The position numbers and the translations under genes are program-made. A stretch of 64,000 nucleotides of DNA from assembly GCF_947501385.1 (NCBI RefSeq), contig NZ_CANMVP010000003.1, positions 62,001-126,000 of the forward strand, given 5' to 3'. Source of the DNA: an uncultured Polaribacter sp. GTDB taxonomy: Bacteria > Bacteroidota > Bacteroidia > Flavobacteriales > Flavobacteriaceae. Shown here piece by piece: positions 324-14,127 of the stretch (its first letter is position 1; the number at the start of each line of letters is the position of its first letter). The notes below the pieces were generated by a model. It did no database searches and had not been told where the DNA came from. It was given only the letters and a program-made list of their open reading frames with translations.

Positions 324-368
324 CAATACTATGAATACTAGAATTAGTTTCTATCCTGCACAAACCTG
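324..368 (-). promoter_or_regulatory. Operator/promoter of the LamG gene (direct repeat plus -7 box)
   Basis: Reading the minus strand, CAGGTT (368-363), four bases, CAGGAT (358-353), 21 bases, then TAGTATTG (331-324), a relaxed form of the Bacteroidota -7 box TAnnTTTG. The same spacing is found at three plus-strand promoters in this locus (1948, 4030, 9552). The two hexamers are 10 bp apart, one helical turn. The repeat lies inside the last codons of the upstream sulfatase gene (its C-terminal NRFVQDRN). Expected transcription start is near 317, about 20 nt before the ATG. Confidence 0.7.
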
Positions 369-1864
369 TTTCTATATAAATTATTCACTAAAAGTCTTGT
401 TTTTATTCTCGCAGGATTGTTTTCTATATCTCTTGTTTCTTCTCTCCATTTATTTAAAGCAGTTCTTAATTCGATCTTTTTCTCTTGGAATTTAGGCTCT
501 TTTGCAAGGTTTATTAATTGATAAGTGTCATTTTTCATATCATATAGTTCCTCTGCGGGTCTTCCATTTTCTAAAGTTCGTAACAAATCATATTGCATTG
601 GGTGTGTTTCTTTTACTGCAATAGTTGCATCGTAACTTTTATTACTCCAGCCTTTATATGCTCTTAAATCTGCAGGTAATACATAAGATTTTTTAGGCAT
701 TAAATTTTTTATATAATAGAACCTTCCATCAAAAACCATACGGCTTGGATAATGTTCTCTTGGATCTGGCCCATGAGAGTTATGCTCTGCGAAAATGTAT
801 TTTCTACCTGCAACATTTTCTTCTTTTCCATTGAAAACAGCAAGCAAAGACTTTCCCTGTACAGTTTTTGGAATTGGTAAATTCAAGAACTTTAAAATAG
901 TTGGCATCATATCTACGTGAGAAATTAATGCTTTAGAAATTTGCCCTTTTGTTACGTTTGGTCCTGTAACAGCATAAGGAACATGTAAACCCTCAGAATA
1001 TGCAGAGGCTTTTGCTCTATGATATGGCTGCCCTTGGTCTGATGTGAAAATAATTAATGTGTTATCAAATTCTCCTTTTGCTTTTAAAGTTTCTATAATT
1101 GCACCTGCACAAGCGTCTGCCAATTGTACACAACCATAATATTTGCTCAAATCTTCTCGCATCATTGGGGTATCTGGCAAATAATCTGGCACCACAATTT
1201 TATTAGGATTTGGCATGTATTCAGGAAATTTATTCATATGAAGATCGAAATTTCTATGAGGAGGAGAAATATTCGCTTGAAAAAAGAAAGGTTTATCGCC
1301 AGATTCATCAATAAAATTGCTAATTACACTGCTATATTTTTCAGGATCATTGTGTACAGAATTTCTTGCTGTATATGGAAATTTCCAAGGCGGACTCATA
1401 TGAAACTTCTGTGTTATCGCAGTAAAAAAACCATTTTCCTCTAAAATTTCTGGTAAGGTTTTTATATATTCATGAATGCCTACTTTGTCTACTCTCGGTG
1501 CTTGTCTTCCAAAGAATATATCTGGCTGATTTAACTCTGGGGTTATCGTATTTCGCCAATGACCATTTGCATGTGGAAACATTCCTGTATTTATAGAACT
1601 TCTGCTTGGTGAGCAAGAAGGTACCGAAGCGTATGCATTTGTAAAACGCATTCCTTCTTTTGAAAAAGCATCAAAATTGGGCGTCTCTATTCCTTTCATT
1701 CCGTCAATGGAAGTATCATAACCTTGATCGTCCATTAAAATTAAAACAACATTTAATGGTTTTTCAGCTGCTTTTTTATGAGTTATCTCTTTAGATGCTT
1801 TACAATTCAAAATTAGAGTTGTAAAAATCACTACCGTAAAAAATCGAATGCTCAAAGATTTCAT
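344..1864 (-). CDS. Type I sulfatase (S1 family), lipoprotein
   Basis: A 506-residue arylsulfatase-type enzyme that should remove sulfate esters from an algal glycan. The N-terminus is a signal peptide with a probable lipidation cysteine at residue 21 (TLILNC), suggesting a membrane-anchored protein. The metal-binding start LILMDDQGYD is at about 41-50. The maturation signature CSPSR begins at C84, the residue expected to become formylglycine. A TSDQGQPY motif near residue 275 supplies further metal/sulfate-site residues. It is transcribed divergently from the sulfatase at 2037, and a half-operator CAGGAT plus a -7-like TACCTTTA lies between them. Its last codons contain the operator of the next gene. 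The exact S1 subfamily and the regiochemistry cannot be told from sequence alone. Confidence 0.9.
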   Translation of the reverse strand: MKSLSIRFFTVVIFTTLILNCKASKEITHKKAAEKPLNVVLILMDDQGYDTSIDGMKGIETPNFDAFSKEGMRFTNAYASVPSCSPSRSSINTGMFPHANGHWRNTITPELNQPDIFFGRQAPRVDKVGIHEYIKTLPEILEENGFFTAITQKFHMSPPWKFPYTARNSVHNDPEKYSSVISNFIDESGDKPFFFQANISPPHRNFDLHMNKFPEYMPNPNKIVVPDYLPDTPMMREDLSKYYGCVQLADACAGAIIETLKAKGEFDNTLIIFTSDQGQPYHRAKASAYSEGLHVPYAVTGPNVTKGQISKALISHVDMMPTILKFLNLPIPKTVQGKSLLAVFNGKEENVAGRKYIFAEHNSHGPDPREHYPSRMVFDGRFYYIKNLMPKKSYVLPADLRAYKGWSNKSYDATIAVKETHPMQYDLLRTLENGRPAEELYDMKNDTYQLINLAKEPKFQEKKIELRTALNKWREETRDIENNPARIKTRLLVNNLYRNRFVQDRN

Positions 1865-1893
1865 AAATTACAAGTATACTTTATATTAAAATT

Positions 1894-1928
1894 TAAAGGT
1901 ATTATAATTACTACAATAGGGCATCCTG
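1894..1928 (-). promoter_or_regulatory. Half-operator and -7 box of the minus-strand sulfatase
   Basis: On the minus strand CAGGAT (1928-1923) is followed after exactly 21 bases by TACCTTTA (1901-1894), the same geometry as the full operators of this locus. The upstream hexamer is CCTGCA instead of CAGGTT, so only one half is conserved. Together with CAGGTA at 1935-1940 on the plus strand it forms an inverted pair, so the divergent intergenic region may bind more than one protein unit. Confidence 0.5.
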
Positions 1929-1947
1929 TTCTTGCAGGTAGCTTTAG

Positions 1948-1992
1948 CAGGTTGGTACAGGATATAAATAGAAATATTTAGCACCATTTTTG
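1948..1992 (+). promoter_or_regulatory. Operator/promoter of the CVTSR sulfatase
   Basis: CAGGTT (1948-1953), four bases, CAGGAT (1958-1963), 21 bases, CATTTTTG (1985-1992), which differs from TAnnTTTG only at the first base. An additional CAGGTA lies at 1935-1940. Predicted transcription start is about 1999. A start codon at 2001 would therefore be leaderless, which favours the ATG at 2037. Confidence 0.7.
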
Positions 1993-2036
1993 ATGAACTT
2001 ATGGTATTGAGTAAATTAGCTATTAAAATGATTGAA

Positions 2037-4007
2037 ATGAACGTCAAAATAAAACTTTTTTTAACCTTTATTTTATGTACTCAACTATTGAGTTCTCAAA
2101 ATAAAAAACCAAATATTATTTTAATTGTTGCTGATGATTTAGGATATAGCGATGTAAGTTCTTTTGGCGGGGAAATTCCAACACCAAATATTGATAATTT
2201 AGCAGAAAATGGTGCGCGTTTTATTAAATTTTATGTTTCACCAATGTGTGTTACTAGTAGAGTTGCTATCCTTTCTGGAATTGAATTTATAGCTGCAGGA
2301 AAAGGAAGTTTCCCAAAAGGAGAAAGTATTGCAAAGTTAATGCGAGAAGAAGGCTACACCACAAATTTAGTTGGTAAAAATCATGGAATGGGAAATCTTA
2401 AAATTGGGAATAAAAAAACCGATTTTGGTTTCGATCATTTTTTTGGGTTTACTGGCGGACAAATAAATAGTTTTACAGGAAAAGGAAATGCAAAATGGCA
2501 AAATGATGGTAAAATTTTTCCAAATACAGATTTGCCAAAAGATTTTTACGCAACAAATAATTTTACAGATTACGCCATAAAATATATGGATGAGGCCATT
2601 AAAAAAGACAAACCTTTTTTTAGTATGGTTTCATACAATGCACCTCACAGTCCATTAGATGCTCCTGAAAAAAATGTGCGTAAATTTTATGATCCTAAAA
2701 AAGGAATTAATGTTTACAAAAAAGGTTGGATTGAACTTCGAAAAGAGCGCCTAGCCCGAATGAAAAAAATGGGAATTGTAGACAAAGATACACAACTTCC
2801 AAAATTGGGTGTAGAAATTCCAGATTGGGATTTATTACCCGAAAAATCAAGTAAATATTGGGAAATTCAAAAAGATTTTGAAGCCTTGTCTAGAAGTGCC
2901 TATGCAGGTATGGTAGATAATATGGATGAAAATATTGGTAGAATTACTGCTTTTCTAAAAGACCCAAATCAAGATGGAAATACAAACGACAGTCAGTTAG
3001 AAAATACCATTATTATTTTTATTTCAGACAACGGTGGTTGCTACGCTGGTTTGCATACAAATAGAAACGCATTGCCATGGAGTCCCCAAAATAGAGGCGC
3101 AGGTTTTACCACAAATTATGGTTGGGCAGCATTAAGCAACACCCCTTTTAGTTCTTACAAACACGGAAGTGGCGAGGGTGCAATCCGTTCTCCAATGATT
3201 GTACATTGGCCTGAAGGATTAAAATTGAAGAAAAATTCTATTAACAAACAAATGATTCGAATTTGGGATTTATTTCCTACTTTTTTAGAATTGGCAGGAG
3301 GGAAATATCCAAATGATAAAAAAGAATTGATGGGAAAAAGTATGTTGCCATTACTCAAAAATGAAAAATTTCAAGAAGAAAAATTCTTTGTTTCCGCGTT
3401 TTATCGTTCTAAAGGAATTATCAAAGGAGATTGGAAATTGGTTAGTTTTTTTGACAGTCCTTTTGAATTATACAATTTAAAAAATGATCCAACAGAAACA
3501 GAAAACGTTCATAAAAAACATCAAACTAAATACAAAGAGCTTCTAAATTCTTGGAATGACTATACTCAAAAACACGGTTTTAATAACGACAAATTATGGA
3601 ACATGCCTACTGGTGACAAAAAGAGAGGTTTTGGTTATGACAGGGTTAAAAATATGATGGTAAAGGCGTCTCCAGAATTTATGGAAGACAATGTTTGTAT
3701 CAATCAAAAACTAACCTTTACGTTTAATGGTAAAGTGACTTTTGCGAATACAAATGGTAGAAAAATACGCCTACAAAAATATGGAAGCCAAGAAATTTTA
3801 TGGTCAAAAGATTTAGATATAAATAGTGATTTTGAAGGTGAAAAAGAAATCGTTTTTAAAGATTTTCCTACTTTAGAATCCAACACACATTATTATATAA
3901 CTTGGGATGCAGGTTGGGTGAAAATTAAACAAAAAGGAAAAATGAAGCCCATACAACCTGTTAGAGAAAGTGCTTTTGCATACCGTTTTAGAACAAGTTC
4001 TAAATAG
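2037..4007 (+). CDS. Sulfatase-family protein with unusual CVTSR signature
   Basis: A secreted sulfatase-family protein of 656 residues from the preferred ATG at 2037. That start gives a clean signal peptide (MNVKIKLFLTFILC to LLSSQ) and a leader of about 38 nt behind the mapped operator. The metal-binding start NIILIVADDLGYSD and a later FISDNGGCY motif are intact. The maturation site reads CVTSR (cysteine codon at 2247): threonine stands where formylglycine-generating enzymes normally meet proline or, less often, alanine. The usual GKWHLG lysine/histidine motif is GKNHGMG here. A C-terminal extension of about 130 residues after the sulfatase fold looks beta-rich, of unknown role. It may be an active sulfatase with a tolerated variant, or an inactive or differently matured homologue. 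Confidence 0.85.
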   Translation: MNVKIKLFLTFILCTQLLSSQNKKPNIILIVADDLGYSDVSSFGGEIPTPNIDNLAENGARFIKFYVSPMCVTSRVAILSGIEFIAAGKGSFPKGESIAKLMREEGYTTNLVGKNHGMGNLKIGNKKTDFGFDHFFGFTGGQINSFTGKGNAKWQNDGKIFPNTDLPKDFYATNNFTDYAIKYMDEAIKKDKPFFSMVSYNAPHSPLDAPEKNVRKFYDPKKGINVYKKGWIELRKERLARMKKMGIVDKDTQLPKLGVEIPDWDLLPEKSSKYWEIQKDFEALSRSAYAGMVDNMDENIGRITAFLKDPNQDGNTNDSQLENTIIIFISDNGGCYAGLHTNRNALPWSPQNRGAGFTTNYGWAALSNTPFSSYKHGSGEGAIRSPMIVHWPEGLKLKKNSINKQMIRIWDLFPTFLELAGGKYPNDKKELMGKSMLPLLKNEKFQEEKFFVSAFYRSKGIIKGDWKLVSFFDSPFELYNLKNDPTETENVHKKHQTKYKELLNSWNDYTQKHGFNNDKLWNMPTGDKKRGFGYDRVKNMMVKASPEFMEDNVCINQKLTFTFNGKVTFANTNGRKIRLQKYGSQEILWSKDLDINSDFEGEKEIVFKDFPTLESNTHYYITWDAGWVKIKQKGKMKPIQPVRESAFAYRFRTSSK

Positions 4008-4029
4008 TTATGTAAACGAGAAACGTCCA

Positions 4030-4074
4030 CAGGTTGCCACAGGATAGCAAAAAAGAAGTAAAAAAGTACATTTA
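4030..4074 (+). promoter_or_regulatory. Operator/promoter of the rhamnosidase operon
   Basis: CAGGTT (4030-4035), four bases, CAGGAT (4040-4045), 21 bases, TACATTTA (4067-4074), a near-perfect -7 box. Transcription should begin near 4081, giving a leader of about 42 nt to the ATG at 4123. It probably drives the run 4123-9524, in which gaps are only 9 to 29 nt. Confidence 0.75.
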
Positions 4075-4122
4075 CAACTATTGATATATTTTAAAAATTC
4101 AATCATTACAACATTTAAAAAA

Positions 4123-5880
4123 ATGAAAAAATCGTTTCCAATTTTATTGATTTTATTCTTTATGAAAGCAGCAGTATTTGCACAATTACCTCCAGTTTTT
4201 GATTCGAATGACGAAGACAGAGCAAGTCATTCAGAGATGGTGAGAACCTATTTAACCCCTAACAGAATTGTGTGGCAAACAGATACAACGGGTAAATTTA
4301 TACAAAATGAACAAACCTTATTAAAAAAAGGAAATGGGCAAGTTGCTGTAAACGACAAAAATTTATTTAGATTGATAAGTACAGAAGACAACAAGCCAGG
4401 AATTTTGTTAGATTATGGAAAAGAAATTCACGGAGGTGTAAAAATTTCTATGGGAATTAGACCTTCTAAAACACCAATGAAATTAAGAATTCGTTTTGGA
4501 GAATCTGTTTCTGAAGCAATGTCTGATATTGGTGGAGAATACAACGCAACCAACGAACATTCTTTACGTGATTTTATAGTGGAAGTGCCTTGGTTGGGTT
4601 CTGTAGAAATAGGAGAAACAGGTTTTCGTTTTATTCGAATTGATGTTGTTGAAGGTGGAGAAAACGCACCCATTAAATCTATAGAAGCTACATTTGTTTA
4701 TAGAGATTTAGATTATTTAGGTTCTTTTGAAAGTAATAATAAAAGATTGAATGATATTTGGATGACGGGTGCTTACACTGTGCATTTGAATATGCAAAAT
4801 TATCTTTGGGACGGCATTAAAAGAGACCGTTTGGTTTGGGTTGGCGATATGCATCCAGAAGTAATGACAATTAATACCGTTTTTGGAAAAAATGATATAG
4901 TTCCAAAAAGTTTAGACTTGGCAAGAGATCAGCATCCTTTACCACAATGGATGAATACCATTAGTTCCTATTCTATGTGGTGGTTGTTAATTCATAAAAA
5001 CTATTTCGATTATCACGGAGATTTAGCCTATTTAAAAGAGCAAGAAATGTATATGATTGCTTTATTAGATCAGTTAAGTACTTTTATTGATAAAGACAAT
5101 AAGGAGATTTTAAATGGTGGACGATTTTTAGATTGGCCAACAAGTACAGATCCAAAAGCAGTACACGCAGGTTTGCAAGCAATGATGATTATGACGTTTG
5201 AAGCGGGTTCTGAAATGATGGAAACTTTTGGTAGAAAAGATTTATGTAAAAAGTATGAAAAAATTGCTAAAAGATTAAAAAAGCATACTCCAGAAGGCAA
5301 CACTTCTAAACAAGCAGCTTCATTAATGGTGTTGGCAGATTTGGCAAAAGCGAAGAAAACAAATACAGAAATTTTAAGAAAAGATGGTGTTAAAAATATG
5401 TCTACTTTTTACGGATATTATATTTTGGAAGCAATGGCTAAAGCCGATGATTATCAAGGTGGGATTGATGTAATAAGTGAATATTGGGGAGGAATGTTAG
5501 ATTTAGGTGCAACTACTTTCTGGGAAGATTTTAATATTGAAGAAGGAAAGATTAGTGGTAGAATAGATGAACTTCCTAAACAAAATGTTGCAGATATTCA
5601 TACTGATTTTGGTGCATTTTGTTACGTTGGTTTACGCCATAGTTTAGCACATGGTTGGGCAAGTGGACCAACTGCTTGGTTGTCTCAATATGTATTAGGT
5701 GTAAATGTTGCTGATGGTGGAACCACGGTGATTGTTAAGCCTCATTTAGGAGATTTAGAATTTGTAAAAGGAACATTTCCAACAAAATTTGGAGTCTTAA
5801 AAATTAGCCATACAAAAAACGGAAACGGAAAAATAATCACAGAAATTGATGCTCCAAAAGGATTAAAAGTGAAGCAATAA
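4123..5880 (+). CDS. GH78-type alpha-L-rhamnosidase-like protein
   Basis: A 585-residue secreted protein from the ATG at 4123; the upstream TTG at 4081 coincides with the predicted transcription start and is not used. Signal peptide MKKSFPILLILFF to VFAQ. A beta-sandwich of about 200 residues (LLDYGKEIHGGVKISMG, GFRFIRIDVVEGG) precedes an (alpha/alpha)6-barrel with the GH78-like stretch DGIKRDRLVWVGDMHPE and a later ATTFWEDF. These correspond to the segments that hold the acid and base carboxylates in GH78. At the first position the motif reads RDR where many GH78 members have RE(K/R), so the catalytic acid needs checking. It would release terminal L-rhamnose in the periplasm or at the cell surface. 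First gene of a run with the hydrolase candidate, rhaM and a sulfatase. Confidence 0.8.
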   Translation: MKKSFPILLILFFMKAAVFAQLPPVFDSNDEDRASHSEMVRTYLTPNRIVWQTDTTGKFIQNEQTLLKKGNGQVAVNDKNLFRLISTEDNKPGILLDYGKEIHGGVKISMGIRPSKTPMKLRIRFGESVSEAMSDIGGEYNATNEHSLRDFIVEVPWLGSVEIGETGFRFIRIDVVEGGENAPIKSIEATFVYRDLDYLGSFESNNKRLNDIWMTGAYTVHLNMQNYLWDGIKRDRLVWVGDMHPEVMTINTVFGKNDIVPKSLDLARDQHPLPQWMNTISSYSMWWLLIHKNYFDYHGDLAYLKEQEMYMIALLDQLSTFIDKDNKEILNGGRFLDWPTSTDPKAVHAGLQAMMIMTFEAGSEMMETFGRKDLCKKYEKIAKRLKKHTPEGNTSKQAASLMVLADLAKAKKTNTEILRKDGVKNMSTFYGYYILEAMAKADDYQGGIDVISEYWGGMLDLGATTFWEDFNIEEGKISGRIDELPKQNVADIHTDFGAFCYVGLRHSLAHGWASGPTAWLSQYVLGVNVADGGTTVIVKPHLGDLEFVKGTFPTKFGVLKISHTKNGNGKIITEIDAPKGLKVKQ

Positions 5881-5909
5881 ATTTTTTCAATTCATTAAAA
5901 AAAATCATA

Positions 5910-7688
5910 ATGAAATCACTAAAAAAATTATTATTCTTATTAATTTTAATAGTTTCTTTCAATGTTAAAGCTCAGAATTCAACTAAAACAACTCAACTAC
6001 AAAATTACAATACAGATAATTGGATAGCAACAGATGCTTTGGGTAGAGAAACTGTAACTTTTGATGTTGCTGGGCCTGTAAAGCAAAATAAAAAGGTAGG
6101 CGTTTTCTATTACATCTGGCATGGGCATCACTCTAAAAAAGTATATGATATTACTAAAATTTTAAAAGACCCAAAAGGAAAAAGAAAATGGGGTCCAAAA
6201 GGAAAATTTCATTTTTGGGGAGAACCAGAACAAGGATATTACAGAGCTGAAGATCCTTGGGTTTTGCGTAGAGATTTACAAATGCTAACCAATGCAAAAG
6301 TAGATTTCATCTATTTAGATGTTACCAATCATTATATTTATCCAGAAACTGTGAAAGCATTGTTTGAAATGGGAAAAAAAATGCGATCTGAAGGAATTCC
6401 TACTCCAGATATTACATTTACTACAAACTCAAAAAGTGGCTTAACTGTTACCAAAATTTATAATGAATTTTACAGAAAAGGGTTGTACAAAGACCAATGG
6501 TTTATGTGGGATGGAAAACCAGTAATAATGGCAAATCCTAAAGACGAAAATCTAACAAAAGAAGCCAGAGAATTTTTTACAATAAAATACAGTTGGGCTT
6601 GGTCTAAAACAAGAGAAAACCCTAATCATTGGCAATGGGTAGATACAACTCCACAAGATTATGGCTGGAGCAAAAGTCCAGATATTCCAGAGCAAATTCC
6701 TGTTTCTGTTGCTGGACATCCAGTAGAATTAGGGCATGGTTTGTATGGCACAAGTAGATCAAATAATAAACAACCAGAAGTAAATGAATACTATGTAACT
6801 ACAACAACTGGCGAAGGCGCACATTTTCAAGAGCAATGGGACAGAGCTTTAGAAGTTGACCCAGAAATGGTGATGGTTACACAATGGAATGAATGGTTGG
6901 CACAGCGCTTTATTTGGGATGGAAAATTAAAACATCCTGGATATGCAGGAAGATCTATAAAAATAGGCGACACCTATTTTGTGGATGCTTTTACTGAAGA
7001 ATTCAATAGAGATATGGCTCCTATGAAAAATGGGCATACAGATAATTATTATTATCAATTAGTTTCTAATATGAGAAAATTTAAAGGGATGAATCCACCA
7101 GTTAAATTCTCGCAACCAAATTTAATTAAAATCGATGGTAACTTTGAGGATTGGTCAACTGTTCAGCCAGAATTTTATGATCCTACAGGAGATACCATGC
7201 ACAGAGATTTTGCAGGCTATGATCCTGATACAAATTACAAAAACAAAACAGGTAGAAATGATATAATTTCATCAAAAGTTGGTTTAGATAAAAAAGATAT
7301 TTTCTTCTATGTAGAAACACGTAAAAAAATAACAAATTATGAAGATGATAAATGGATGCTGCTTTTTATTGATATCGATAAAAATGCAAATACAGGTTGG
7401 GAAGGATATGATTATGTAGTAAATTATGAGGTAAAATCTTCAAAAAAATCTACCTTAAAAAAATGGAACGGAGCCTCTTGGGTTGATAAAGGAAAGGTTA
7501 ATTACAAAATTAAAAAGAACAAATTAGAATTGTGTGTTGCTAAAACAGCTATTGATTTAGAAGGAACTGCTGATTTTTATTTTAAGTGGGCAGACAATCC
7601 TATAAAGTTAGAAAACATTACCTCCTTTTTCATGAATGGAGATACCGCTCCAGACAGACGTTTTAAATATCATTTTACAGAAAAATAA
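5910..7688 (+). CDS. Putative TIM-barrel glycoside hydrolase with C-terminal CBM9/DOMON-like domain
   Basis: A 592-residue secreted protein (signal peptide to about VKAQ, residue 22). The N-terminal 400 residues look like a GH71/GH99-type barrel: VGVFYYIWHGHHS opening, DLQMLTNAKVDFIYLDVTN, and a WNEW motif (VTQWNEWLAQRF). The last 190 residues (from about IKIDGNFEDW) resemble carbohydrate-binding family 9/DOMON-like beta-sandwiches. I cannot place it in a named family with confidence. Its position, 29 nt after the rhamnosidase and 9 nt before rhaM, argues for a role in depolymerising the same rhamnose-containing glycan. An alternative is a non-catalytic glycan-binding protein. Confidence 0.6.
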   Translation: MKSLKKLLFLLILIVSFNVKAQNSTKTTQLQNYNTDNWIATDALGRETVTFDVAGPVKQNKKVGVFYYIWHGHHSKKVYDITKILKDPKGKRKWGPKGKFHFWGEPEQGYYRAEDPWVLRRDLQMLTNAKVDFIYLDVTNHYIYPETVKALFEMGKKMRSEGIPTPDITFTTNSKSGLTVTKIYNEFYRKGLYKDQWFMWDGKPVIMANPKDENLTKEAREFFTIKYSWAWSKTRENPNHWQWVDTTPQDYGWSKSPDIPEQIPVSVAGHPVELGHGLYGTSRSNNKQPEVNEYYVTTTTGEGAHFQEQWDRALEVDPEMVMVTQWNEWLAQRFIWDGKLKHPGYAGRSIKIGDTYFVDAFTEEFNRDMAPMKNGHTDNYYYQLVSNMRKFKGMNPPVKFSQPNLIKIDGNFEDWSTVQPEFYDPTGDTMHRDFAGYDPDTNYKNKTGRNDIISSKVGLDKKDIFFYVETRKKITNYEDDKWMLLFIDIDKNANTGWEGYDYVVNYEVKSSKKSTLKKWNGASWVDKGKVNYKIKKNKLELCVAKTAIDLEGTADFYFKWADNPIKLENITSFFMNGDTAPDRRFKYHFTEK

Positions 7689-7697
7689 CTAAATAAA

Positions 7698-8012
7698 ATG
7701 ATTAGAAAAGGGTTTAAAATGAAACTATATTCTGATAAAAAGGAGGAATATATTAGAAGACACAATCCAATTTGGGAAGAATTACAGGAAGTTTTAAAAT
7801 CTCATGGAGTTTCTAATTATAGTCTTTTTTTAGATAACGAAACAAATGTTTTATTCGGGTACGCAGAATTAAAAGACGAACAAAAATGGCAAGAAATTGC
7901 AAACACAACAATCTGTAGAAAATGGTGGAGTTTTATGGCAGATTGTATGGAAACAAATCCAGATAATAGTCCAAAATCATCAAATTTAGAAGCAATTTTT
8001 CACATTAATTAA
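7698..8012 (+). CDS. rhaM: L-rhamnose mutarotase
   Basis: A 104-residue cytoplasmic protein, the usual length of RhaM. It interconverts alpha and beta L-rhamnopyranose so that freed sugar can enter rhamnose isomerisation. Visible family features are the opening IRKGFKMKLYSDKKEEYIRRHNPIW with the conserved His, a central SLFLDNETNVLFGYAEL, and the C-terminal WWSFMADCMETNPD signature. It has no signal peptide. It follows the hydrolase candidate by 9 nt and precedes the sulfatase by 15 nt, so it is surely in the same operon. It is the strongest single clue that L-rhamnose is the sugar released by this locus. Confidence 0.93.
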   Translation: MIRKGFKMKLYSDKKEEYIRRHNPIWEELQEVLKSHGVSNYSLFLDNETNVLFGYAELKDEQKWQEIANTTICRKWWSFMADCMETNPDNSPKSSNLEAIFHIN

Positions 8013-8027
8013 AATGAAATATCAACA

Positions 8028-9524
8028 ATGAAAACAGCAAAATTAGCCATTATACTTTTAGTGAGTATCTGTATTTTTTCTTGCAAAAAAGAAGTTGCAA
8101 AGGTTGAAAAAGAAACATTAAAAAGACCAAACATTATCTTTTTAATGGATGATCAACATCGTTTTGACGCTTTAGGAATTTTAAATAAACAGGTAATTAC
8201 GCCAACGTTAGATAATTTAGCTAAAAACGGAGTTTTATATAGTCAGGCTGTTTGCCAAGCGCCAATGTGTGTGCCCAGTAGAAATTCTATGATGTTGGGT
8301 TTGTATCCAAATCAAACCGGTGTTTACAGAAATAGCGATGGGTTAAAAGACGAAGAATTACCTGTAAAAACCATGGCAGAATATTTTAAAGAAGCGGGTT
8401 ATGAAACTGCTGGTTTTGGAAAAACACATTGGGGAAAACACAAAACAAATACAAGAGGTTTTGAAACACGTTACACATCAGAAATTAAAGAAGAAGGTGG
8501 TTTTACAATGTTAGAAATGAATCCTGAAGCAAAGAAAAAATACGATGATGAAATTGCAGATATGGGTCCAGGAGAAGAAAATAATCTCGGGTATTTAGGT
8601 TTTACCAGCAAGTTAGAAGAGGAACAACATAGAGATGGTTGGATAACCAAACAAGTGTTGAATTACATCAACAAAAGAGAAGATGAAAGACCTCTTTTCT
8701 TGTATTTATCTTACATGAAACCGCATGCAGGTCATAATGTGCCAAAAGGGTATGAAGATTTGTACGACGCAGATATTATTAAATATGCGGAACAACCAAA
8801 CTGGACAGCAGACAATTCTCCACATTCAGAAGGTGTAAATAGAAGAGATATGTACAGAGAATATTGGAGTAAAGCTTCTAAAGAAGATTGGCAATTAATG
8901 ACCATGCGTTATTATGCAAATGTAACTTGGATTGATGATATGATGGGAAGAACCTTAGCAGCTTTAAAAGAAAAAGGATTGTTAGAAAATACTTTGATTG
9001 TTTACACCTCAGATCACGGAGAAATGTTAGGAGAACGTTATTACAAGTTTAATAAATACAACTTATATGATGCGAGTGTAAGAATTCCAATGATACTATC
9101 AGGAACGGCACTACCAAAAAAAATCCAGAGAAATTCGGTTGATAATTTATCAGCAGAAAATACAGATTTGTTACCAACTCTATTAGATTTTGCAGATATC
9201 AAACAAGACAACCGGTTGTTAGGTGAAAGTTTATTATCAACAAATAGAAATAAAGCGACATTTGCAGCTTTACACGAAAGAAAAGGAGAAGCTGCTTTTA
9301 TGTGGAGAACAGCAAATTACAAATTAATTTTAGTCTTTAATAAAAAAGAAAACGCCATAAATTATACTGAAAAAGATATTATTACTGGTGAATTCTATAA
9401 CTTAGAAGAAGATCCTAAAGAATGGACTAATTTGTATAATTCTAAAAATATTTTATCATTACAAAAAACATATCAAAAAGAACTAATTAATTTTCTAAAT
9501 CAACAAGAAATGTTAGTGGAATAA
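8028..9524 (+). CDS. Type I sulfatase (S1 family), lipoprotein
   Basis: A 498-residue sulfatase with a lipoprotein signal peptide (probable lipidation at C19, CIFSCKK). Metal-binding start IIFLMDDQHRFDALG, the canonical maturation site CVPSR beginning at C81, the GKTHWGKHK segment matching the GKWHLG region, and a late YTSDHGEMLGE motif are all present. It should hydrolyse sulfate esters, probably on rhamnose-containing oligosaccharides, judging from its operon partners (rhamnosidase, hydrolase candidate, rhaM). Last gene of the run; the next gene has its own operator at 9552. Confidence 0.92.
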   Translation: MKTAKLAIILLVSICIFSCKKEVAKVEKETLKRPNIIFLMDDQHRFDALGILNKQVITPTLDNLAKNGVLYSQAVCQAPMCVPSRNSMMLGLYPNQTGVYRNSDGLKDEELPVKTMAEYFKEAGYETAGFGKTHWGKHKTNTRGFETRYTSEIKEEGGFTMLEMNPEAKKKYDDEIADMGPGEENNLGYLGFTSKLEEEQHRDGWITKQVLNYINKREDERPLFLYLSYMKPHAGHNVPKGYEDLYDADIIKYAEQPNWTADNSPHSEGVNRRDMYREYWSKASKEDWQLMTMRYYANVTWIDDMMGRTLAALKEKGLLENTLIVYTSDHGEMLGERYYKFNKYNLYDASVRIPMILSGTALPKKIQRNSVDNLSAENTDLLPTLLDFADIKQDNRLLGESLLSTNRNKATFAALHERKGEAAFMWRTANYKLILVFNKKENAINYTEKDIITGEFYNLEEDPKEWTNLYNSKNILSLQKTYQKELINFLNQQEMLVE

Positions 9525-9551
9525 ATATTTTAATTCTTAATTTTTATCTCT

Positions 9552-9596
9552 CAGGTTAGGGCAGGATGCTTTTTTAAGTCATTTTTTTGAATTTTG
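9552..9596 (+). promoter_or_regulatory. Operator/promoter of the G8-domain protein
   Basis: CAGGTT (9552-9557), four bases, CAGGAT (9562-9567), 21 bases, GAATTTTG (9589-9596), off the TAnnTTTG consensus at the first base. A second -7-like TACATTTG begins at 9599. A leader of roughly 40 nt would precede the ATG at 9643. Confidence 0.7.
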
Positions 9597-9642
9597 TATA
9601 CATTTGAAATTTTTTTCATCTGTTAAAATTTAAAACAATGCT

Positions 9643-12600
9643 ATGATGAAAAAAACATACTCTTTTATTACTCTTTTACTAGTTGTATTTACAATAGCAT
9701 CATTTACAAACCCAGAATTAAAAGCGAAGTCTGTTAGTTTTAAAAATTCTTATACCCCAAATTCATTAGCACCTATTCAAGCAATTACTACAGGAGATTG
9801 GAATGATGTAGCAACATGGAGTACAAACCAAATACCAACTACTGAAGATGACGTAACAATTCCTAACGGAATTCGAGTGTCGCTTTCTGGAATGATGAAT
9901 GCTAGAACAATTGTAATTGATGGTAATTTAGGACCATCAAATCTTACTACAGATTTTGATTTAACTACCAAAGGGATTATAGTTCGTGATGGTGGTTTGT
10001 TTCAAATAGGAAGTACTACAAACGCTTATACGGCAAATGGTATCATAACACTTACGGGTTCAAATCCTTCAGAAGTATTAATGGGCAATACACTTATGGG
10101 TTCTAAATTAATTGGAGTTATGTCTGGTGCAAAATTAGAATTACATGGTGTTTCAACAAAAACATGGACACAATTAAACGCAACCGCAGAGAAAGGAGCA
10201 ACGGCAATCACATTAAAAGAAATTACCAGTTGGAAAGTTGGTGATGAAATAGTAATTGCATCTACAGACTTTGACCCGCATCAAGCAGAAAAAAGAACAA
10301 TTACAGCTATTAACGGAATGGTTTTAACGTTAAACTCTCCATTAAATTACATGCATTTTGGTGTTGAGCAAATTTATAATAATGGTACTAAAGATCTTAT
10401 TTTAGATGAAAGAGCAGAAGTAGGTTTGTTAACGCATAACTTAAAAATACAAGGAGATGCTGCTAGTGAAACGAATGGTTTTGGTGGTCATATTATGTCG
10501 ATGCCAGGTTCAGTTTCAAAAGCATCTAATATTGAATTGTATAGAATGGGGCAAAAATCTCAGTTGGGTAAATATCCTTGGCATTGGCATTTATTAGGAA
10601 ACGCTGACGGGCAATTTATTAAAAATGCAGGAATTCATACAGCATATAATAGATTGATAACTGTTCATGGAACAAATAACACCGTAGTTGAAGGAAATGT
10701 TGGCTATGACTTTTTAGGGCATGGATATTTTTTAGAAAATGGAAGTGAAACTGGAAACTTATTTAAAAATAATTTAGGTGTTTTATGTAAAAGACCTAAA
10801 GATGGTGAAGAAACAACACCTCATGATATTGGTGTTGGCGCTGGTAGAGGTGCGCATCCTGAAGCTTTTCCCGCTACTTTTTGGATTACAAACCCGAATA
10901 ATGATTTTATAGGAAACGTTTCTGCAGGTTCTGATGGCTCTGGTTTTTGGCATTTAATTTTAGATGAAATTTTAGATGGTCCAGAATCTAGCTATAACCC
11001 AGGAAGACAACCGATGGGAATTTTTGATGATAACAAAGCACATTCTAATTTATTTAGTTGGGGAGTAGATGGAGGAATAGATAGAGATACTGATGAGATT
11101 GTTACTGGTCATTACAGACCTCAAAACTCCAATGGAAGCCAATTTATACCAATTATTAATCGTTTTGATGGCTATAAATCTGTAGATAGAAATGTTTGGA
11201 TTAGAGCCAATAAAATGGATTTTTATGATTGTGATTTTGGAGATAATGGTCGTGCAGATTTTTTCTCTTACCATCAAACATTGTTTAATTCTTTAATTGT
11301 GGGTAAATCTGCAAATATTGGAAACCCTAAATCTGCTAGTGAAATTCAGGCAGGTAGATCTTTACCATACCCCACAAGACCTTTAACACAATTTGGAAAT
11401 GCTTTTAGAGGGCATAGTATTTATGATGGTCCTTCAGGAATTGTTGATACTCATTTTGACGGTTTTAATTCAAACGGTGCTAAATCTTATTGTTTTCAAA
11501 CAAATGGAGCTTCAAGAAAATCTACGAATCATTTTGCTAGAGGTATTACTTATGGACCTGATGTTGAAGAAAACGTAAAATTTGAATTTGGTAATAATTC
11601 TTGGTTGAGTTTTATGTATTTAAGTGGTATTATAGATCAAGATGGAAGTTTAACGGGTTACCCTGGAGCTACTGTTTCACCAATTATAAGAGCAAACCCT
11701 AGCGGTAAAAATTTATACGAAAAAGGAGCAAATACCCAAATGAGAAATGCAATTGAAAAACCAGAATGGGGGGCTTGGATTACACAAAATAAAACATATA
11801 ATTATTTTAAAGATGTAGATTTTACGAATAAAAATGATGGTGCTTTTACACCTCGTTATTTTATTACCGAATATCCAGATAAATCTACGCACGCTGTTTT
11901 TAATACACAAACACAACAACTATATTTTGATGCGCCTGTAATTACAAACGATTTAGATTATACTTATAATTTTCAATATCATAAATTGCCAAAATATATG
12001 TCTGCTTCAGTAGATGGCTGTACAACAAATTCTGAAAATGTTATTGTTGCTTACCCGAATATTCCAGGTATAGCATTTGCTGGCAATGCTGCAAGAGTTA
12101 CTAATATGACACAATTAAAAGCTAGTCCTAGCCAAGCGTATTTAATAAAGGACAATACTATTTATTTTAAATTGATTAGTAAAAATACAAGAAGTGAATT
12201 TTTTCAAAGACAATTTGGACGAGAATACAAATATGAAAACAGAGTATTTATTTGTAATTCAGGTAATTGCAATAGTAGTTCAACTTGGGGAAATATTCTA
12301 AATAGAGTTACCTTAATAGATTATAGTGTTCGCTCTATGAGTTTAGGTTCTATCGATACAAATGATGATTCTAGGGACAATGCAATCGCAACAGATGGAT
12401 TAACAGTACCCACTTTTGCATACGCAAATACCAAAGTAAATTTTACAGTTCAAAACAACGGAAATGGCGTAAATGGTTATACAGATTATGCAATTACATT
12501 AGCTTCTAGACAAGTTTGGGAGTATTTTAATACTATAGGTATAAACTATACTGGACCTGACGTAGAGGTAATTGTTCAAAGTGAAAATGGGCAAGAATTT

Positions 12601-14127
12601 AATGTTGGTACTTATAAATCATCAGACTCAAATAATATTCGTATTGGGCAAGATACAGAATTTGACAAATTTACGAATGTAAAAAAACTAATTTTACGTT
12701 TTCACGAATCTAACATAGGAGATATCAATACAGCATCAACTAGAGAAATTAGCATCAACGTTATAAATTTAGGCTCAGATATTCCAGAAAATTATAGTAT
12801 TTCTTCAACAACTGTAAATCAGGATTCAGATGGAGATGGTATTTTAGACGCTGTTGAATTTAATTTATGCAGAGATCAAAACTCTGCGTCAGATTTTGCA
12901 GTAGAATTTAATGGTGATAGTCATCTTTTTGATGGGTATTCATCTGATTTTATTGATAATTCACAAATAATAAATGGTGTTATAAAGGGTACGTCGAATG
13001 GTAATGATTCTAAAATTATAAAAACTGGTTTTGTTTCGTTTAAAGGTTCAGATATTCGTACAATTACACTTAGATACAAAGCAAATATTGCAGGTACTAA
13101 AGTGCAGCTTTTTTGGCAAACAAGTGAACAGAGTACTTACTCAGCATCTAGATCTGCCACTAACAATTATACGGGTAATGATCAATGGCAAGAAGTAGTA
13201 CTAGATGTTTCTGAAAATGCTGAATGGAATGATAACATTATTACTGGTTTTAGAATAGACCCTACAAACAATACAAATGTTTCTTTTGAAATCGATTGGA
13301 TTCGTGGAAATAACGCTGTAGATCCTTCAAAGTCTTGCGTTCCTGGTATAGATAGTGATAAAGATGGTTTGTTTGATAATGAAGAAGAAGATTTATGTAG
13401 AGATATTAATTCTGCATCAGACTTTGCTATAGAGTTTAATGGTGACGATATTTTTAACGGATTCACAACCAAATCAATCACCGGATCTGAGGAAACAGAT
13501 GGGGTTCTTAAAGGAACAAGTAATAGTGCCGATTCACAAATAATAAATACAGATTTTATAAATATGTCAGGTTCTGAAATTAGTTCCCTGACCATTAAAA
13601 TGAAAGCAGATATTGCAACAACAAAATTTCAGCTATTTTGGGAGAACGAAGATGGTGGAGTTTCGGCTACAAGAACAGCTAGTGTAGATTATACAGGAAA
13701 TGGAGCATGGCAAGAATTAGTAATCGATTTATCTACAAACAATACTTGGCAGGGAAAAACAATAAAAGGCCTCAGAATAGATCCAACAAATAATGGTAAT
13801 GTAAATTTTGAAATAGATTGGATAAGGGCTCAAAGTGCAGAAGATCCTGCAACATCCTGCGCAACAGCTTCGCTTAGTGATGAAATTTTAGAAAAAGATT
13901 TTGTTTTATACCCGAATCCTGCTTCTAAAAAGGCTTTAATTAGTATAAAAAGAATTGGGACTTACAATGAAGTTAAAGTATTTGTTTATGATATTACGGG
14001 GAAAAGAATTCATACTAAAGAAAATAAAAATACAATACAAATTTTAAATGCAAAGGCAGGTATTTATTTTGTGAAATTTATAGTAAATAACTCAAAGATT
14101 ATTACAAAAAAAATAATTATCTTTTAA
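9643..14127 (+). CDS. Giant secreted G8-domain / beta-helix protein with T9SS type A C-terminus
   Basis: A 1494-residue protein. After the signal peptide comes a G8 domain at about 45-155 (GDWNDVATWSTNQIPTTEDDV, VSLSGMMNARTIVIDGNL). A long right-handed beta-helix-like region with right-handed parallel repeats follows to about residue 780. Near the C-terminus are two tandem modules of about 150 residues, each opened by a calcium-type linker (DSDGDGILDAVE, DSDKDGLFDNEEE). Each module ends in a WQE-(LV)-V-(IL)-D ... FEIDWIR strand pair and looks like a carbohydrate-binding jelly-roll. The last 80 residues are a T9SS type A sorting domain (FVLYPNPASKKALI to the KII end), predicting export through the outer membrane. 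G8 proteins act on or bind polysaccharides; no specific activity is claimed. It shares the operator of the sulfatase/rhamnosidase genes. Confidence 0.85.
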   Translation: MMKKTYSFITLLLVVFTIASFTNPELKAKSVSFKNSYTPNSLAPIQAITTGDWNDVATWSTNQIPTTEDDVTIPNGIRVSLSGMMNARTIVIDGNLGPSNLTTDFDLTTKGIIVRDGGLFQIGSTTNAYTANGIITLTGSNPSEVLMGNTLMGSKLIGVMSGAKLELHGVSTKTWTQLNATAEKGATAITLKEITSWKVGDEIVIASTDFDPHQAEKRTITAINGMVLTLNSPLNYMHFGVEQIYNNGTKDLILDERAEVGLLTHNLKIQGDAASETNGFGGHIMSMPGSVSKASNIELYRMGQKSQLGKYPWHWHLLGNADGQFIKNAGIHTAYNRLITVHGTNNTVVEGNVGYDFLGHGYFLENGSETGNLFKNNLGVLCKRPKDGEETTPHDIGVGAGRGAHPEAFPATFWITNPNNDFIGNVSAGSDGSGFWHLILDEILDGPESSYNPGRQPMGIFDDNKAHSNLFSWGVDGGIDRDTDEIVTGHYRPQNSNGSQFIPIINRFDGYKSVDRNVWIRANKMDFYDCDFGDNGRADFFSYHQTLFNSLIVGKSANIGNPKSASEIQAGRSLPYPTRPLTQFGNAFRGHSIYDGPSGIVDTHFDGFNSNGAKSYCFQTNGASRKSTNHFARGITYGPDVEENVKFEFGNNSWLSFMYLSGIIDQDGSLTGYPGATVSPIIRANPSGKNLYEKGANTQMRNAIEKPEWGAWITQNKTYNYFKDVDFTNKNDGAFTPRYFITEYPDKSTHAVFNTQTQQLYFDAPVITNDLDYTYNFQYHKLPKYMSASVDGCTTNSENVIVAYPNIPGIAFAGNAARVTNMTQLKASPSQAYLIKDNTIYFKLISKNTRSEFFQRQFGREYKYENRVFICNSGNCNSSSTWGNILNRVTLIDYSVRSMSLGSIDTNDDSRDNAIATDGLTVPTFAYANTKVNFTVQNNGNGVNGYTDYAITLASRQVWEYFNTIGINYTGPDVEVIVQSENGQEFNVGTYKSSDSNNIRIGQDTEFDKFTNVKKLILRFHESNIGDINTASTREISINVINLGSDIPENYSISSTTVNQDSDGDGILDAVEFNLCRDQNSASDFAVEFNGDSHLFDGYSSDFIDNSQIINGVIKGTSNGNDSKIIKTGFVSFKGSDIRTITLRYKANIAGTKVQLFWQTSEQSTYSASRSATNNYTGNDQWQEVVLDVSENAEWNDNIITGFRIDPTNNTNVSFEIDWIRGNNAVDPSKSCVPGIDSDKDGLFDNEEEDLCRDINSASDFAIEFNGDDIFNGFTTKSITGSEETDGVLKGTSNSADSQIINTDFINMSGSEISSLTIKMKADIATTKFQLFWENEDGGVSATRTASVDYTGNGAWQELVIDLSTNNTWQGKTIKGLRIDPTNNGNVNFEIDWIRAQSAEDPATSCATASLSDEILEKDFVLYPNPASKKALISIKRIGTYNEVKVFVYDITGKRIHTKENKNTIQILNAKAGIYFVKFIVNNSKIITKKIIIF

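Follow-up and report, generated by a model that had tools for sequence, protein, structure and literature searches.

Which protein reads the short DNA repeat that recurs before sulfatase, rhamnosidase and other genes of an uncultured Polaribacter sp., and how might it act on their promoters? The repeat, two hexamers of the form CAGGTT-N4-CAGGAT, lies in a 64,000-nucleotide stretch of contig NZ_CANMVP010000003.1 (positions 62,001 to 126,000; the whole stretch is called the window and the contig C3, and coordinates without a prefix are those of the window), where an initial annotation took it for the activator site of a five-promoter regulon. We consider it highly probable that the repeat serves a single regulon as its operator and is read by a GntR/LacI-like one-component activator that answers to a rhamnose-linked signal. 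The most likely reader, judging from sequence, is a GntR protein encoded at C3:26346-27386, outside the window. The regulon itself, with a direct-repeat operator unusual for GntR proteins, we regard as real.

Exact CAGGTT-N4-CAGGAT is present in four copies in the 4.67-Mb genome, all of them inside the window, and was matched in none of 100 dinucleotide-preserving shuffles of the window. With up to three mismatches the window holds 38 matches against 36 by chance, so only near-exact copies are meaningful. Relaxing the pattern to CAGGNT-N4-CAGGNT adds one copy, CAGGAT-N4-CAGGAT at 13859-13844 (minus strand) in the G8 coding region, which has no promoter box, is not called by the weight matrix introduced below, and was rejected. 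Over all offsets from 5 to 45 bases after the repeat, 21 is unique in that all five promoters (four with a full and one with a half copy) match at least five of the six fixed letters of TAnnTTTG, and when the five stretches downstream were shuffled base by base 20,000 times, this box alignment was never equalled at any offset. The claim of a box exactly 21 bases after the second hexamer is thereby borne out at all five promoters, with an uncertain -7 assignment at the G8 gene (see below). A weight matrix built from 107 sites in other genomes calls exactly the five window sites, the half copy included, and none in the reversed control.

The five promoters are real, but the regulon is wider than first annotated. 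Scanned with the same matrix over all of its length except the last ~8 kb, C3 has 11 sites, all between 26.2 and 71.6 kb in a 45-kb rhamnose/sulfatase locus, five of them in the window; the reversed control gave none. The other six stand before rhaEW (C3:26195, minus strand), a SusC gene (C3:27607, plus), a LamG gene (C3:37357, minus), a sulfatase gene (C3:37404, plus), just inside the annotated start of a GH106 open reading frame that probably starts later (C3:48946, minus), and before another SusC gene (C3:58245, minus). When the whole genome was scanned for repeat, N21 and box together, all six matches with at most one mismatch and 8 of 17 with at most two fell in this locus; the remaining nine of the 17 all have two mismatches, are scattered, and are comparable in number to the six control matches. 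The enrichment at unrelated genes that would have spoken against a regulon is thus absent. Uptake genes of the SusCD type, sulfatases, rhamnosidases (GH78, GH106) and rhamnose catabolism genes make up the locus, as in an ulvan or rhamnan locus, and ulvan is rich in rhamnose (PMC12858550). As a component of the explanation as a whole, it is very probable that the locus targets a sulfated, rhamnose-rich algal polysaccharide of the ulvan type. It has one BNR_4 protein, and in the related genome G039 the genes of a PL28 ulvan lyase and of an ulvan-lyase-domain protein carry the site. The genome also has a second rhamnose operon, on contig C4 (L275, C4:186001-200000).

Comparison across genomes refines the operator to CAG(G/T)ATAGNA-CAGGAT-N21-TAnnTTTR. 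Its first half, CAG(G/T)ATAGNA, emerges from 112 distinct sites that were selected by CAGGAT-N21-box alone (the matrix above was rebuilt from the 107 of these that are not from the own genome), and on this alignment the first half has the consensus CAG(G/T)ATAG, from which the CAGGTT seen here departs as a local variant. The sole clear symmetry in the 112 sites is direct repetition at a shift of 10 (score 3.0), which agrees with the two half-sites 10 bp apart in the initial annotation; inverted symmetry, scoring 0.9 at best, was rejected, as was a third repeat unit, which appears in single sites only and not in the column counts. The spacing to the box is equally sharp: among 72 distinct exact-repeat sites chosen by the repeat alone, an exact TAnnTTTR stands at offset 21 in 42, and in 59 when one mismatch is allowed, against at most 4 and 12, respectively, at offsets elsewhere in the range 5 to 44, with one exact box at offset 20 and none at 22. 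Within the genus (97 genomes including the own), the exact repeat occurs at 16 places beyond the own genome, and a box at 21 with at most one mismatch follows all five intergenic copies versus 1 of 11 copies in long open frames (exact boxes, 4/5 versus 0/11). Two of the five intergenic copies are the second-sulfatase and rhamnosidase ortholog promoters of Polaribacter aestuariivivens (G059). The search of related genomes for the fixed N4 and N21 spacing, suggested with the initial annotation, thus found conserved ortholog promoters, and with the first half widened to CAGNNT it gave 34 matches in 13 of 95 genus genomes and none in the control.

The gene of the candidate reader has the rhaEW site on one side and the first SusC site on the other and lies 35 kb before the first window site, which fits the expectation of a single locus regulator not encoded in the window. 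Its gene neighbours rhaEW, rhaI, a sugar kinase gene and the gene of a flavin mononucleotide-dependent lactate-type dehydrogenase. The protein has an N-terminal GntR winged-helix domain (PF00392, 42.0 bits, cut-off 27), for which the best structure match is Lmo2241 (4ham, E 3.6e-9), with AraR also found (4egy, E 7.4e-8). By fold, the protein model is matched best by LacI-family structures; this model, built from 31 sequences, has a mean predicted local distance difference test (pLDDT) score of 88, and an earlier one from 10 close sequences (pLDDT 67) was discarded. A TetR gene (L006:13908-14528) lies ~12 kb beyond the GntR gene, outside the stretch with sites. The GntR protein is the best candidate, the one regulator that fits among the locus proteins scanned.

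Sites and GntR genes occur in the same genomes (in the following counts the own genome is included among the 13 genus and 42 family genomes with sites). A GntR relative is present in 41 of 95 genus genomes, with at least 51% identity in 14 and at most 42% in 27. All 13 genomes with a perfect site are among the 14 (Fisher, 4e-15, for an identity cut that was chosen after the identity gap was seen), the fourteenth (G009) has an imperfect site beside the GntR gene, and the 27 genomes with only the more distant relatives have no perfect site. Across the family, perfect sites were found in 42 of 249 genomes (control, 1) and a GntR protein at E <= 1e-80 in 60, including 40 of the 42 (Fisher, 9e-29). 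The 80 best of 473 loci retrieved solely by similarity to the GntR protein contain 89 sites with at most two mismatches, spread over 59 of the 80, and none in the reversed control. Among these 80, rhaEW was found in 72, and wherever it is at least 80% identical (40/40 loci) a site with at most three mismatches lies 12-36 bp before its start. At L130:7719 (G039) and L132:6369 (G076) the site precedes a further GntR paralog of 333 residues, a hint of autoregulation or of a cascade of regulators.

The strongest argument that the GntR protein reads the repeat is a change in the half-site that accompanies a change of regulator. Seven of the 249 family genomes have rhaEW without a close GntR. Three of these (G117, G309, G343) have neither a GntR gene nor a site in the 9 kb read around rhaEW, and four (G130, G189, G284, G307) have a GntR of ~40% identity beside it. 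In G130, G189 and G284 the repeats are of the CAGAAC type, N21 and box being unchanged, and a variant pattern written from these three matched 4 of the 249 genomes, namely G189, G284, G307 and G265. A wider search added three more genomes with a ~40% GntR beside rhaEW (G355, G396, G420), for a total of 7 in 395. All seven have CAGAAC-type repeats (at most two mismatches) near the GntR gene, with the same period, the same N21 and the box at no more than one mismatch, whereas reversed controls gave none, and none of the seven has a CAGGAT-type site in the 20 kb examined (40 kb in G307). Four of the seven were not used to find the variant: G307 was matched by the pattern, and G355, G396 and G420 were read afterwards. 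Since rhaEW itself stays 81-85% identical, the half-site change follows the regulator.

Several observations weigh against this assignment. Against Peripla_BP_3 the sensor domain scores 24.4, below the Pfam cut-off of 26.5. GntR proteins mostly repress. They are also usually reported to bind palindromes (PMC4494728). A single variant-type match in G265 has neither GntR nor rhaEW linked to it, and we take it as chance. Two genomes have a perfect site without a close GntR: G282, with a site of score 32 close to the end of a contig (L284), and G309, with one of score 15 that looks like chance. Conversely, the strict pattern finds no perfect site in 20 of the 60 GntR-carrying family genomes. The adjacency of site and GntR in the 80 loci is partly selection, as these were chosen by GntR, and where rhaEW is only 63-64% identical (32 of the 72 loci) no site precedes it. 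In 35 of 36 Flavobacterium-type loci we found a weaker, divergently oriented site, AAGGATAGTACAGGA(C/T) with the box TTATTTTA, ~300 bp before the GntR gene; with the matrix of 112 sites, the own genome's included, it scores 17.9 in 26 loci and 25.3 in nine, and one reversed-control match reaches 17.6. Finally, all 60 GntR-carrying family genomes also carry rhaEW, so phyletic profiles alone cannot separate regulator from pathway; the half-site change does.

Based on these results, we propose that the reader is a cytoplasmic one-component regulator in which a GntR winged-helix domain is fused to a LacI-like sugar-binding domain. Two subunits would occupy the two CAGGATAG-like half-sites, which are separated by one turn of the helix and face the same side of the DNA, and the direct repeat suggests a head-to-tail arrangement of the two GntR domains. 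The -7 box, of the sigma-A TAnnTTTG type, was mapped at -12 to -5 in F. psychrophilum (PMC9723704), which puts the repeat at about -49 to -34, in the place of the -33 element and exactly 21 bases before the sigma-A -7 box. The proximity to RNA polymerase seen in the initial annotation, and the activator role read from it, are retained in our proposal: an operator in the -33 place at a fixed distance of 21 means that the GntR protein probably recruits RNA polymerase, and the rigid spacing argues for activation. Such placement over the -33/-35 region, at a fixed distance from the -7 box of a predicted transcription start, is of the type termed class II activator geometry. A TTG at the -33 spacing is kept in 1 of 59 sites, a lack that is partly trivial because the repeat itself fills the -33 place. 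The signal would be L-rhamnose or a close metabolite derived from the polymer, as the rhamnose genes of the locus suggest, and may tie the rhamnose pathway to uptake of the SusCD type and to the sulfatases and rhamnosidases. With less confidence, though still with the balance in favour, we extend this to the family: Bacteroidota would possess activators with a GntR domain and a LacI-type sensor that bind head-to-tail to a 10-bp direct repeat replacing the -33 element. The letters of the half-site could be exchanged from clade to clade (CAGGAT to CAGAAC) within a fixed architecture, and rhamnose would in this way switch on whole ulvan-degradation systems across Flavobacteriaceae.

The same GntR protein could instead be a repressor that obstructs RNA polymerase at -49 to -34 until the binding of rhamnose releases it from the DNA, an alternative that we consider unlikely but by some way the most serious. 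It would agree with the usual role of the family and with a GntR-family alginate regulator of Zobellia that is a repressor by the title of its report. More distant Polaribacter paralogs point the same way: at 16 loci of ~40% paralogs, two ACYAGT-like half-sites 10 bp apart stand just before the paralog's own gene, which looks like autorepression. These half-sites are near-palindromic, their box offsets vary from 13 to 22, and a TTG directly follows the second half in 10 of the 16 promoters by reading. Given this variable distance, the rigid 21 is not valid for all paralogs; any 10-bp repeats near paralogs gave no N21 peak either (8 matches versus 5-11 at other distances). The repeats of these loci (L150-L165) are ACYAGTANNTACYAGT-like. 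A repressor, however, needs no fixed distance, yet the exact boxes of the 72 sites are concentrated at 21 and all but missing one base to either side.

A reader of the AraC type or a hybrid two-component system (HTCS) regulator encoded elsewhere, as favoured in the initial annotation, is probably wrong and in our view improbable. For Bacteroides, PMC3878776 lists an AraC-type RhaR as the rhamnose regulator, and the own genome has 37 HTH_18 matches, but none of the 37 lies on C3. Predicted Bacteroides HTCS motifs average 21 bp between sites (PMC3878776) and AraC-type rhamnose regulators have a 21-bp period (PMC3870299), whereas the repeat here has 10 bp. Moreover, the rhaEW copy on C4, 89% identical and beside an AraC-type regulator gene, has no repeat, and the half-site letters change with the GntR protein beside rhaEW. 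Even less credit is due to the idea that the repeat belongs to an alternative-sigma promoter with no separate reader: the fixed distance to the -7 box would suit it, but the box is of the sigma-A type (PMC9723704), and a 10-bp direct repeat whose letters change with the GntR paralog is unexpected for a sigma recognition element. Chance, or duplicated DNA around closely spaced promoters, we regard as refuted, because flanks and spacers diverge while repeat, distance and box are kept, no shuffle equalled the box alignment, and the ortholog promoters are conserved in another species. We thus retain the GntR activator as the preferred reader.

Within the window, the four full copies and the half copy lie exactly where they were first annotated. 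The leftmost operator, CAGGTTTGTGCAGGAT (353..368, minus strand), is upstream of a LamG/type IX secretion system (T9SS) gene (starts 301/298, running off the window); it sits in the last codons of the preceding sulfatase gene and is followed after 21 bases by the -7 box TAGTATTG (324..331, minus), with a predicted transcription start near 319. That sulfatase (344..1864, minus; PF00884) is itself a target, behind an operator with a degenerate first half, CCTGCAAGAACAGGAT (1923..1938, minus), whose CAGGAT half at 1928-1923 is the annotated half copy and stands 21 bases before the box TACCTTTA (1894..1901, minus); half-site, N21 and a box, TATCTTTA, are also present in P. aestuariivivens. A second sulfatase gene (2001..4007, plus; start probably at a later ATG near 2037, judging by the ortholog in P. 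aestuariivivens) follows the operator CAGGTTGGTACAGGAT (1948..1963, plus) and the box CATTTTTG (1985..1992, plus), and the corresponding promoter of P. aestuariivivens reads CAGGTTGGCACAGGAT-N21-CATTTTTG. Upstream of the rhamnosidase genes are the operator CAGGTTGCCACAGGAT (4030..4045, plus), in a promoter conserved in the P. aestuariivivens ortholog, and the box TACATTTA (4067..4074, plus). The G8/CEMIP gene is preceded by CAGGTTAGGGCAGGAT (9552..9567, plus; CAGGTAACAGCAGGAT in the P. aestuariivivens ortholog) and, at offset 21, by the weak box GAATTTTG (9589..9596, plus). A perfect TACATTTG lies at 9599-9606 (offset 31), 10 bp beyond the weak box, and P. aestuariivivens keeps both, TACATTTG at 31 and a weaker GAA(T/G)TTTG at 21; this conserved perfect box makes the -7 assignment of the G8 promoter uncertain. 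The two candidate boxes (9589-9606) are one helical turn apart.

The rhamnosidase promoter appears to serve an operon of four genes, all on the plus strand. A GH78-like alpha-L-rhamnosidase (4081..5880; PF17389; likely start MKKSF near 4123) comes first, followed by a 592-residue protein without a Pfam or NCBIfam match (5910..7688), L-rhamnose mutarotase RhaM (7698..8012; TIGR02625, 148.1 bits against a cut-off of 99.6) and, at the end, a sulfatase (8028..9524). An open reading frame for the 592-residue protein is also found at the corresponding place in P. aestuariivivens. The last target is the G8/CEMIP-like protein (9643..14127, plus), the final gene of the locus, whose 1494 residues comprise a G8 domain, a CEMIP beta-helix and a T9SS tail. 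This pair of G8 and CEMIP domains is familiar from animal hyaluronan-related proteins. The genes that follow are housekeeping genes, of the lumazine-binding riboflavin synthase type and PdxA.

In the open-access literature, the titles and abstract openings among the matches listed name no regulator or operator for marine flavobacterial ulvan loci, nor any GntR protein that controls such loci or rhamnose loci in Flavobacteriaceae. The analysis supplies a candidate regulator, an operator and a list of targets for many genera, and the natural change in specificity makes the claim testable. The site further points to a design for rhamnose-responsive promoters that is native to Bacteroidota, and would be an example of probable activation by a GntR/LacI-type protein bound to a direct repeat.

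Among known systems, we file the candidate by its protein architecture as an AraR-like variant, with a direct repeat in place of the palindromic operator typical of GntR proteins. AraR of Bacillus subtilis likewise has a GntR domain and a LacI-like sugar-binding domain, in the same order, and is linked to a sugar. It is, however, a palindrome-binding repressor, whereas the candidate differs in its 10-bp direct repeat, its activator position and the rigid distance of 21 to a Bacteroidota -7 box. The AraR subfamily and its structures have been described (PMC4494728). GntR winged helices also bind direct repeats in NanR, NagQ and FarR (FadR/HutC) and in GabR, TauR and PdxR (MocR), and several MocR proteins activate (PMC4494728, PMC5320631); these differ in sensor domain and site sequence, and the parts of the sources drawn on do not describe a Bacteroidota -7 box at a fixed distance of this kind. 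Rhamnose genes including rhaEW are likewise controlled by RhaR/RhaS (AraC) and by RhaR proteins of the DeoR and LacI families, which are other protein families, although RhaR proteins of the DeoR type also have direct repeats, of 10-11 bp, as their sites (PMC3870299); in the main text of that paper, 'GntR' occurs 0 times. Within the same phylum, FucR and ManR of Bacteroides are GntR regulators of monosaccharide pathways, and the ManR regulon includes a SusC/SusD-like system as well (PMC3878776). FucR controls a single operon (PMC3878776), whereas the regulon described here spans 11 promoters, including those of uptake, sulfatase and glycosidase genes.

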